Positions 29,597-32,467 of a stretch of DNA of 63,718 nucleotides are shown piece after piece (the first letter of the stretch is position 1; each line of letters starts with the position of its first letter). Below the pieces are notes generated by a model. That model did not search any database, was not told where the DNA came from, and saw nothing but the letters and a program-made list of their open reading frames with translations. The stretch covers positions 1 to 63,718 of the forward strand of contig JAUQQA010000009.1 in NCBI GenBank assembly GCA_030550095.1. Direction: 5' to 3'. Source of the DNA: Chloroflexota bacterium. Its GTDB lineage: Bacteria > Chloroflexota > Anaerolineae > J036 > Brachytrichaceae. The position numbers were made by a program, and so were the translations under genes.

Positions 29597-30355
29597 TCAA
29601 GAGGCGTGCGCGCCTTCAGCGAGCAGGGCGCGCACGCGCGCCACAAGATAGCTGAAAGCGGGTTCGCCTTCCATCGCCCAACTCCGAGGACGCGGGAGCG
29701 CGACGCGTACTTCGCCTATCGGGTGCCCAGGGCGCGCACTGCTAACGACCACGCGGTCGGCAAGGAAGATTGCTTCGCCGATGTCGTGCGTTACCACCAC
29801 AAGCGCCATACCGAGCTGCGTAGCGAGCCGATCCACCAGCGCGGTGAGTGCCTCGCGCGTGAGCGCATCAAGTGCGCCAAATGGCTCATCGAGCAACAGC
29901 AGCGGGGGAGCCGTCACGAGCGCGCGCGCCAGCGCCACGCGTTGCGCCATGCCTCCGCTTAAAGTGTGGGGGCGTACGTGCTCAAAGCCTGCTAAACCCA
30001 CCTCATGCAGCAACGCGAGGGGATCGAGCGTTTTTTTCTGAGCGCGCAACGCGCGCATCTCTAGCGGGAGCTGCACATTCTGCAGCACGGTCCGCCAAGG
30101 CAGCAACGCCGCCTCTTGGAACATGAAGCCGATCTCTGCAACAGGGCGTTCAAGCCGCTCGCCGCGAAACATGATGTGCCCCTCGGTGGGGCGAAGCAGC
30201 CCAGCGAGTGCGCGCAGCAAGGTGCTCTTGCCACAGCCGCTAGGACCGACGATCGCCACACGCTCGCTGGACTGCACGCACAGGTTGAAGCGCCGCAGCG
30301 CCTCAACGCCATTCGGGTAGATGTGCGTAAGGTTCTCTGCGACGAGCAAGCACAC
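29597..30355 (-). CDS. ABC importer ATPase (probable riboflavin uptake)
   Basis: This 252-residue ATPase is of the SsuB/TauB/ThiZ type: Walker A VGPSGCGKS, Q-loop FMFQEAALLPW, signature LSGGMAQ and Walker B LLLLDEPFGALD. It is the last gene of the operon permease, binding protein, ATPase that follows an FMN riboswitch at 32324-32446. The start is GTG 30355, 16 bases after the binding-protein stop. The longer frame to 30484 would overlap that gene and starts with unrelated residues. The operon's riboswitch argues that it powers riboflavin or flavin-precursor uptake. Confidence 0.85.
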   Translation of the reverse strand: MCLLVAENLTHIYPNGVEALRRFNLCVQSSERVAIVGPSGCGKSTLLRALAGLLRPTEGHIMFRGERLERPVAEIGFMFQEAALLPWRTVLQNVQLPLEMRALRAQKKTLDPLALLHEVGLAGFEHVRPHTLSGGMAQRVALARALVTAPPLLLLDEPFGALDALTREALTALVDRLATQLGMALVVVTHDIGEAIFLADRVVVSSARPGHPIGEVRVALPRPRSWAMEGEPAFSYLVARVRALLAEGAHAS

Positions 30356-30371
30356 GACGCGCTTCGGGGGT

Positions 30372-31367
30372 TTAGGGCAGCAGGGCGTTGGTGAAGTACT
30401 CGTTTGGATCGCGCAGCGCACTGATCTGCCCCATCTCCAGCAATGTGCGCTGCGTGAAATCCCAAGCCTCCGCGGAGGAAGCACCGAGCTGCTCTGCCTG
30501 CATCAGTTTGACCGTCTCGAGCAGCACTTGCCTCTGCACAGAATCCTCAGGCGAAAGCCCTTCGACAAACTTCGCGCTGATGCGCAGCGCTGCGTCGGGG
30601 TCGCGGAGGGTGTCCTGAATGCCACGCAGCAATGCGCGCACCATGCCGCGCGCCAGCGCAGGGCGTTCGTTGAGCGTGCGCTCATTGGTGACCAAGCCGT
30701 TCGCCACGAGGTTCACCGCGTCACCCACAAAAAAGACGTTGACGGGGTAGCCGTTGCTCTCAAGCACAATCGGCTCGTTGACGATGTAGCCCACAGCCGC
30801 GTCCACTTGTCCTTGCTGCACGGCGGCGACTTGCGTGAAGCCGATCTCGCGCACGTTCACGTCTTGCTCATTCAGGTTGTTCACCTTGAGGAACGCGCGC
30901 CAGCCGACGTAAGTCGCGCCGAAAAAGCCAGGCAGCCCCACTGTCTTACCGCGCAAGTCGGCAGGAGTTGCGATGCCCTTCTCCTTGAGGCTGAAGACTG
31001 CGATGGGAAACTTTTGGTACCACGCCGCGATGTACTTCACTGGGAGCCCCTGCGCGCGCGCAAGCACCACTTGCTCGCCGCTTGCCACGGTGAATGGCAA
31101 CTCGCCTGCGCCTACGAGCTTCATCCCATCGGTCTCAAAGCTGTAATCGAACGAGAGCGCAATGCCTTCCTCGGCAAAGTAACCGCGCTCTACGGCGACG
31201 TAGAACGGCGCGAACTGGACGTTGGGGATGTAGCCCATCGGCAGCCGAATTTGCTCCACCGCCGGCGTAGGGGGCGTGGCAGGGGGCGGTGCTGGCACTG
31301 TGCAGCTTGCCAACGCCAGCGCAACACCAACAAGACCAACACAACGCACGAAAGAAGTTTGCTGCAT
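30372..31367 (-). CDS. ribY: NMT1/THI5-type binding lipoprotein (RibY-like, probable riboflavin binder)
   Basis: This 331-residue binding protein has a signal peptide with lipobox ALASC at about residue 22, then an NMT1/THI5 fold: RLPMGYIPNVQFAPFYVAVERGYFAEEGI, and GVASGEQVV-like FTVASGEQVVLARAQGLPV. Family members bind thiamine precursors or, in the RibY branch from Chloroflexus, riboflavin. The FMN riboswitch upstream favours the RibY role. GGAGGTG precedes ATG 31367; the longer frame to 31436 is rejected. Confidence 0.75.
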   Translation of the reverse strand: MQQTSFVRCVGLVGVALALASCTVPAPPPATPPTPAVEQIRLPMGYIPNVQFAPFYVAVERGYFAEEGIALSFDYSFETDGMKLVGAGELPFTVASGEQVVLARAQGLPVKYIAAWYQKFPIAVFSLKEKGIATPADLRGKTVGLPGFFGATYVGWRAFLKVNNLNEQDVNVREIGFTQVAAVQQGQVDAAVGYIVNEPIVLESNGYPVNVFFVGDAVNLVANGLVTNERTLNERPALARGMVRALLRGIQDTLRDPDAALRISAKFVEGLSPEDSVQRQVLLETVKLMQAEQLGASSAEAWDFTQRTLLEMGQISALRDPNEYFTNALLP

Positions 31368-31392
31368 CTCAACACACCTCCATTGCACCAAA

Positions 31393-32181
31393 CTAGCTGC
31401 GGAGCACCAACCGCTCCGCGAGGCGCACAGAGCCATACAACGAAAGCGTCAGCGCGATGGTGACGAGCACGCTAACCATCACCAACGGCGTGTCGTATGT
31501 GCCGCTGCCGAGACTGACCAAAAAACCAAGCCCGCGGCTGGCGCTGAGAAACTCACCCGCGATCGCGCCGACCATGGAGAGCGTGACGCTGACACGCAGC
31601 CCCGCGAACACAAATGGCAGTGCTGCGGGCAGCTCTAGCTTCACGAGCGTCTCCCATGGGGTTGCCTGCATCATGCGGAAGAGAGCGTGCAGCACGGCAG
31701 GGGCGCTGCGCACCCCAACCATGATGTTGATCGTCATGGGGAAAAACACCACCAAGGCGCACACCAAAGCTTTAGCAAAAGTGCCGTTGCCGAACCAAAT
31801 GAAGATCAACGGCGCAACCGCAACAAAGGGAATGCCTTGCGAGGCAACTACGAACGGCGCTAAAAGCCGCTCCGCAAGCGCCGACTTCGCCATCGGCACG
31901 CCGATCAGCAATGCCATCACGCTGCCCATCGCCAAGCCGAGCAGCGCTTCTGCAAGCGTGACGAGCACATGAGCAAGCAGCGTGCCATCCAGCAGCTTCT
32001 GCCAAGCGCGCATCAACACCAGCGCGGGCGAAGGCAGGATGAACGGTGGATACTGCGCTGAAAGCGCATGCCACGCAGCAACGGCGAGGAAGAGGCTCAC
32101 GAATGGTGCCCAGCGCAGCCCACGGCGCGCTTGTGCGGTCGGCCTTGTCGGCTGAGGTGTCCAGGATTGCGCGATGTACAT
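31393..32181 (-). CDS. ribX: ABC importer permease (RibX-like, probable riboflavin uptake)
   Basis: This is a 262-residue permease of the SsuC/ThiX family with about six membrane helices and the EAA-type loop LHALFRMMQATPWETLVKLELPAALP. It is the first gene after the FMN riboswitch. ATG 32181 lies four bases downstream of an eleven-base hairpin that holds the only G-rich ribosome-site candidate, so translation is probably what the switch controls. Its in-frame extension to 32304 runs through that hairpin and is rejected. It works with the binding protein and ATPase encoded downstream. Confidence 0.8.
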   Translation of the reverse strand: MYIAQSWTPQPTRPTAQARRGLRWAPFVSLFLAVAAWHALSAQYPPFILPSPALVLMRAWQKLLDGTLLAHVLVTLAEALLGLAMGSVMALLIGVPMAKSALAERLLAPFVVASQGIPFVAVAPLIFIWFGNGTFAKALVCALVVFFPMTINIMVGVRSAPAVLHALFRMMQATPWETLVKLELPAALPFVFAGLRVSVTLSMVGAIAGEFLSASRGLGFLVSLGSGTYDTPLVMVSVLVTIALTLSLYGSVRLAERLVLRS

Positions 32182-32184
32182 ACA

Positions 32185-32219
32185 CAAAGCCCCGAGACAA
32201 CACACGCTTCGGGGCTTTG
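32185..32219 (-). promoter_or_regulatory. Hairpin masking the ribX ribosome site (riboswitch expression platform)
   Basis: CAAAGCCCCGA and TCGGGGCTTTG make a perfect eleven-base stem with a 13-base loop (32196-32208). On the minus strand it ends four bases before ATG 32181. The GGGGC in the arm is the only plausible Shine-Dalgarno segment, and no T-run follows, so it looks like translational rather than transcriptional control. Confidence 0.6.
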
Positions 32220-32234
32220 GGACATAGCAAAGAT

Positions 32235-32248
32235 CTTGCCTAGGCAAG
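32235..32248. repeat. 14-base perfect palindrome between riboswitch and ribX
   Basis: CTTGCCTAGGCAAG is a perfect palindrome. It lies between the FMN aptamer and the masking hairpin in the ribX leader. It could form part of the switching structures or a protein site. Confidence 0.45.
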
Positions 32249-32323
32249 GCGTAGCACAACACCGCGCAGCGCCGATGCATGCGCGATCGCTTGCCCAGCC
32301 ACAAGCGGCAGCTTCTTTCCTAT

Positions 32324-32446
32324 GACCGTCTTCTTTACATCCCGACTGTCACGGTCGGCCCCGGAGTTTCACCGGATCCTGCGTGCCTCTCAACACGCTC
32401 GTGGGCTATACCACCGATCGGGAATTGCACCCTGCCCCGAAGACGG
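32324..32446 (-). ncRNA. FMN riboswitch (RFN element)
   Basis: On the minus strand the RNA begins with the closing stem ACCGTCTTC, pairing with GAAGACGGT at the far end. The aptamer core holds the family's hallmark words in order: GGGGCAGGGTGCAATTCCCG, then GGTGGTATAGCCCACGAG, then GGATCCGGTGAAACTCCGG, then GGCCGACCGTGACAGTC and GGGATGTAAAGAAG. A TACAAT -10 box at 32467-32462 lies 15 bases before it. The rest of the leader to ribX, about 140 bases, holds a palindrome and a masking hairpin. The remaining part of the gap, 32468-32547, shows nothing more. FMN binding normally shuts such genes off. Confidence 0.92.
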
Positions 32447-32461
32447 TGTTTGTTTATCTTG

Positions 32462-32467
32462 ATTGTA
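32462..32467 (-). promoter_or_regulatory. -10 box for the riboswitch-ribXY transcript
   Basis: On the minus strand TACAAT lies 15 bases upstream of the first aptamer stem. The expected transcription start is about 32455. No strong -35 box is seen. Confidence 0.5.

Follow-up and report, generated by a model that had tools for sequence, protein, structure and literature searches.

A probable flavin importer under FMN riboswitch control in an Anaerolineae order with no recognizable riboflavin kinase

An importer operon behind an FMN aptamer

The window, i.e., the whole 63,718-nucleotide stretch of DNA that we analyzed, carries on its minus strand a single operon encoding a BPD permease, an NMT1-type binding protein and an ABC ATPase, preceded by an FMN riboswitch aptamer and a leader hairpin (Table 1). 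Profile searches, together with the lipobox of the second gene, bear out the gene content given in the original prediction (permease, binding lipoprotein, ATPase), and we refer to the three genes as ribX, ribY and ribZ. The operon is flanked in the window by ftsH and a transketolase gene, and in relatives (L205-L214) ribXYZ often lies downstream of genes for a Rieske-type ferredoxin and a rhodanese and upstream of a diadenylate cyclase-like gene.

Table 1. Coordinates of the operon and of its leader elements in the window.
Feature	Position	Strand	Evidence
FMN riboswitch aptamer (RFN element, RF00050)	32324..32448	-	cmscan 101.6 bits, full model
Hairpin before ribX, predicted to mask the RBS	32185..32219	-	z = -4.1; compensatory changes, 22 leaders
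ribX, permease, 262 aa, ATG start	31393..32181	-	PF00528 2.5e-25; X adjoins Y in most related loci
ribY, NMT1/THI5-fold substrate-binding lipoprotein, 331 aa, lipobox LASC, Cys22	30372..31367	-	PF09084 (NMT1) 8.4e-49
ribZ, ABC ATPase, GTG start 16 nt after ribY	29597..30355	-	PF00005 2.1e-34

A search with Rfam cmscan matched the complete FMN covariance model (positions 1-138, E 2e-22) and scored 101.6 bits, above the gathering cut-off of 66.2. This confirmed that a complete RFN aptamer is present on the minus strand, as had been predicted, with the predicted start at 32324 but with an end 2 nt beyond the predicted 32446. A genome-wide search with the same model found no FMN aptamer in the 2.35 Mb genome other than this one, upstream of ribXYZ.

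The leader hairpin, ~100 nt downstream of the aptamer, folds at -22.4 kcal/mol, with none of 200 shuffled sequences equally stable, and its 3′ arm contains a GGGG (32193-32190) located 8 nt upstream of the ribX ATG (32181). Comparison of 22 leaders from the order, the window's own included, placed a hairpin immediately 5′ of the first gene in every one, and demonstrated double-sided changes at stem pairs 5-7 that keep the pairing (G-C to A-T; A-T to C-G, G-C or T-A; and C-G to A-T), which is evidence that the structure is conserved. These observations support the earlier proposal that the hairpin masks the ribosome site of the first gene, and translational control by hiding this site is the natural reading of the sequence. 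In two relatives (L020 and L021), where a long U-run is located 3′ of the stem, the hairpin may instead act as an intrinsic terminator, but in the window's leader the stem is followed by UUU only. Under translational control, plentiful FMN would fold the aptamer, the downstream hairpin would then hide the ribX ribosome-binding site and translation of the operon would fall, and scarce FMN would leave this site free; shut-off by FMN is the direction that we infer.

RibXYZ and its relatives

RibXY systems were named from Chloroflexi (PMC3766115), and the RibXY of Chloroflexus aurantiacus complements an E. coli ribB mutant, i.e., a riboflavin auxotroph, by riboflavin uptake (PMC4418817). The C. 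aurantiacus RibY is reported to bind flavins (cited in PMC4418817), and RibY proteins were assigned in that study by >38% identity to it. The locus in the window resembles the RibXY(Z) systems of C. aurantiacus and Roseiflexus castenholzii (PMC3766115, PMC4418817) in its FMN riboswitch, its permease and NMT1-fold protein and its presence in the Chloroflexota and, as in R. castenholzii, the importer serves a riboflavin auxotroph (see below). It differs from them in two respects: the C. aurantiacus and R. castenholzii operons are described without an ATPase, whereas ribZ is located inside the operon here, and the window's genome has no recognizable riboflavin kinase.

The first of these differences is not special to this genome. 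By our count, 72 loci among the 80 closest from Anaerolineae have an intact X-Y-Z operon, which makes an ATPase in the operon the rule in this class, and PMC4418817 mentions that ribXY of a few Chloroflexi has an adjacent ATPase gene. The original prediction was thus correct in placing the ATPase in the same operon, but not in giving that arrangement a special status. With RibXY already described from Chloroflexi and the X-Y-Z order common in Anaerolineae, the window's locus adds to a known importer family.

A tree of 66 binding proteins clusters the RibY of the order with other Anaerolineae binding proteins encoded behind FMN riboswitches, and separates TPP-riboswitch-linked ThiY homologues from RibY by a branch of 1.88 with a support of 100/100; the placement of three very long rows in this tree is uncertain, and support is weak for where the order falls with respect to the remaining RibY proteins. 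The ThiXYZ importer of thiamine precursors has the same fold and gene order as the operon studied here, but it is marked by a TPP riboswitch or by a binding protein of the distant ThiY clade, and we found an FMN aptamer and a RibY that the tree places apart. The predicted membership of the RibXY group known from relatives of Chloroflexus is therefore supported by the riboswitch and by the tree, and also by the auxotrophy described below.

As sampled, the order comprises 28 genomes from 8 genera of one family, and the closest public relatives of the window's genome are Thermoflexales MAGs and Candidatus Roseilinea. A RibY orthologue is present in 27 of these 28 genomes, the one without it being 67% complete, and an FMN aptamer was detected in 24. 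In three of the 27 RibY-bearing genomes no aptamer was detected, i.e., in G001 (at a contig edge), G003 (L214) and G006 (L215). Elsewhere in the class the aptamer lies 5′ of ribX in most of the other RibXYZ loci sampled, as it does in 18 of 20 additional genomes, which were picked mainly for having a detected kinase.

Flavin synthesis and a missing kinase

Profile searches demonstrated that ribH (PF00885) and ribB (PF00926) are each absent from 27 of the 28 genomes of the order and present in all 14 controls, which identifies the genomes of this order as riboflavin auxotrophs. The sole exception is G009, whose contig C90 (L204) contains a riboflavin synthesis operon found nowhere else in the order. 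This operon has an FMN riboswitch of its own and neighbors thiC, itself associated with a TPP riboswitch, and the F420 genes cofG and cofH. For the RibBA encoded there, the best match sampled elsewhere in the class has 64% identity, and the rib operon of C90 is unmatched in its genus; this contig may be foreign to the bin. Six genomes that are unable to make riboflavin (G001, G002, G003, G006, G013 and G025) contain a GTP cyclohydrolase II-like domain that matches RibBA only over approximately residues 186-403 and lacks the DHBP synthase half.

The riboflavin kinase domain PF01687 was found in none of the 28 genomes of the order, a one-contig genome included, and neither was the archaeal CTP-dependent riboflavin kinase (PF01982). 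Across the class, PF01687 is present in 176 of 199 genomes, with every listed genome of the order among those without it. All 28 genomes nevertheless retain the FMN adenylyltransferase half of RibF (FAD_syn, PF06574), and most encode RibF in its usual place (rbfA-nrnA-truB-ribF-recF). In the window's own genome, RibF (G000:C14, L194:2968-3717, plus strand) has kept the adenylyltransferase half and lost the kinase half, and its AlphaFold model (pLDDT 95) has a small remnant barrel that can still be superposed on the C. ammoniagenes FAD synthetase (CaFADS). RibF proteins of the order are ~250 residues long, compared with the usual ~310, with a C-terminal module reduced to ~60 residues, and the RibF of G003 (L177) ends after the first half. 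Alignment showed the PTAN motif in 0 of 26 RibF sequences of the order and in 30 of 30 from kinase-bearing relatives, and the segment with the catalytic Glu was not found in those of the order; the adenylyltransferase motifs, HxGH included, are conserved in each of the 26 genomes that could be aligned. Formation of FMN by the Corynebacterium enzyme requires Thr208, Asn210 and Glu268 of the kinase module, and changes to T208 and N210 still permit the conversion of FMN to FAD (PMC2573891). Judged from these sequences, the cell is apparently able to convert FMN to FAD but not riboflavin to FMN by known enzymes. In several Anaerolineae (L150, L157, L159, L161, L165, L171, L221 and L227), the C-terminus of RibF apparently continues into a fused archease-like domain.

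With no PF01687 match, no PTAN and no catalytic-Glu segment, the RibF of the order is not a bifunctional, FADS-type I enzyme; it has the features of FADS-type II, i.e., FMNAT motifs that are kept and a short C-terminus without PTAN. An enzyme of this type was the sole FADS in 3 of 1194 genomes surveyed, those of Treponema pallidum, Eubacterium saphenum and Mycoplasma conjunctivae (PMC2972280), and for these species too no other riboflavin kinase is listed. The cases in that survey are one per lineage, whereas here the pattern holds for a whole order, in 28 sampled genomes.

Outside the order, the RibF kinase motif is eroded in four other Anaerolineae lineages: family f39 (L220, L222, L223 and L224), G036 (L221), G140 (L227) and G047 (L226), apparently independently of the loss in the order. 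We considered assembly gaps as the source of kinase losses outside the order; this holds for L225 (a contig end) and L228 (an N-run), and not for f39, G036, G140 or G047. A RibXYZ orthologue is absent from all four lineages, which indicates that kinase loss does not need RibXYZ and that there is no strict link between them. The four lineages would be accounted for by a common replacement kinase or by a different importer of FMN.

The imported flavin

The riboswitch, the clade in which RibY is placed and the auxotrophy together provide good support for flavin uptake, and we infer a flavin as the substrate of RibXYZ. On this sequence evidence, we put the probability that ribXYZ encodes a flavin ABC importer under FMN riboswitch control at roughly 0.87; the importer is likely the main flavin supply of this flavin-auxotrophic Anaerolineae bacterium. 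The riboflavin uptake originally predicted stands as flavin uptake by a RibXY-type importer, but riboflavin can no longer simply be assumed to be the substrate, since neither this genome nor its order has a recognizable riboflavin kinase. Since no known enzyme of these cells makes FMN from riboflavin, they must either take in FMN itself or use a kinase not yet described.

If FMN enters, RibXYZ, as the only riboswitch-controlled flavin importer that we found, is the obvious door. The chances that FMN is the main form imported come, from the genomic evidence, close to even. It is conceivable, with somewhat less than an even chance, that FMN import by RibXYZ made both riboflavin synthesis and the riboflavin kinase dispensable, with the riboswitch sensing the imported molecule itself. 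RibY itself gave no signal of a switch in substrate, as its order-specific residues are no more numerous than those of other RibY clades. A set of such residues (K111, W156, M289, Q184 and others), of which M289 is an invariant M in the order and W or Y in all others, was tried as a sign of a switch; it shrank when compared with genomes with a verified kinase, and its count is unexceptional. We therefore do not use this set as evidence, and the RibY sequence does not decide between FMN import and an unknown kinase.

That RibXYZ takes up riboflavin, that a non-homologous and so far unrecognized kinase makes FMN from it, and that the shortened RibF then adenylylates this FMN is likewise plausible at a little under one chance in two. 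It agrees with the riboflavin uptake demonstrated for the C. aurantiacus RibXY (PMC4418817), with the similarity of RibY between kinase-bearing and kinase-less genomes, and with the recurrence of kinase erosion in lineages without RibXYZ, which would be possible if they shared a replacement kinase. On the other side, neither known kinase family occurs in any of the 28 genomes, a search for a replacement kinase gene beside ribXYZ and beside ribF found none, and the genome has no second FMN riboswitch.

Two further readings fare far worse. Import of FAD, followed by its cleavage to FMN inside the cell, would account for the loss of the kinase too, but is very unlikely, because the adenylyltransferase half, with its HxGH, is kept in 26 of 26 alignable genomes and would be needless if FAD entered. 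More improbable still is a ThiXYZ-type thiamine-precursor or sulfonate importer that merely happens to be located behind an FMN riboswitch: the fold is the same, with ThiY (3ix1) and a thiamin-binding protein (4nmy) the nearest solved structures to the AlphaFold model of RibY (pLDDT 92), but the FMN aptamer goes with RibY orthologues throughout the order and the class, the TPP-linked homologues are distant in the tree, and the NCBIfam models with the best names for the binding protein (sulfonate, taurine and SaoP) all score far under their cut-offs. These names also show that the earlier concern, that automatic annotation would mislabel the substrate, was a fair one.

The importer system itself was already known, and it is its context, the order-wide lack of a riboflavin kinase, that is new to us; this loss formed no part of the original prediction, and we judge it weightier than the importer. 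Our search of the open-access literature found no report on the flavin metabolism of this order, none, apart from the FADS-type II table, of a bacterial lineage that lacks riboflavin kinase, and none of a dedicated bacterial FMN importer. An order without a known riboflavin kinase must either import FMN or carry an undescribed kinase family, and either answer would be new. Resolving the kinase question would also correct predictions of vitamin dependence that name riboflavin as the required nutrient.
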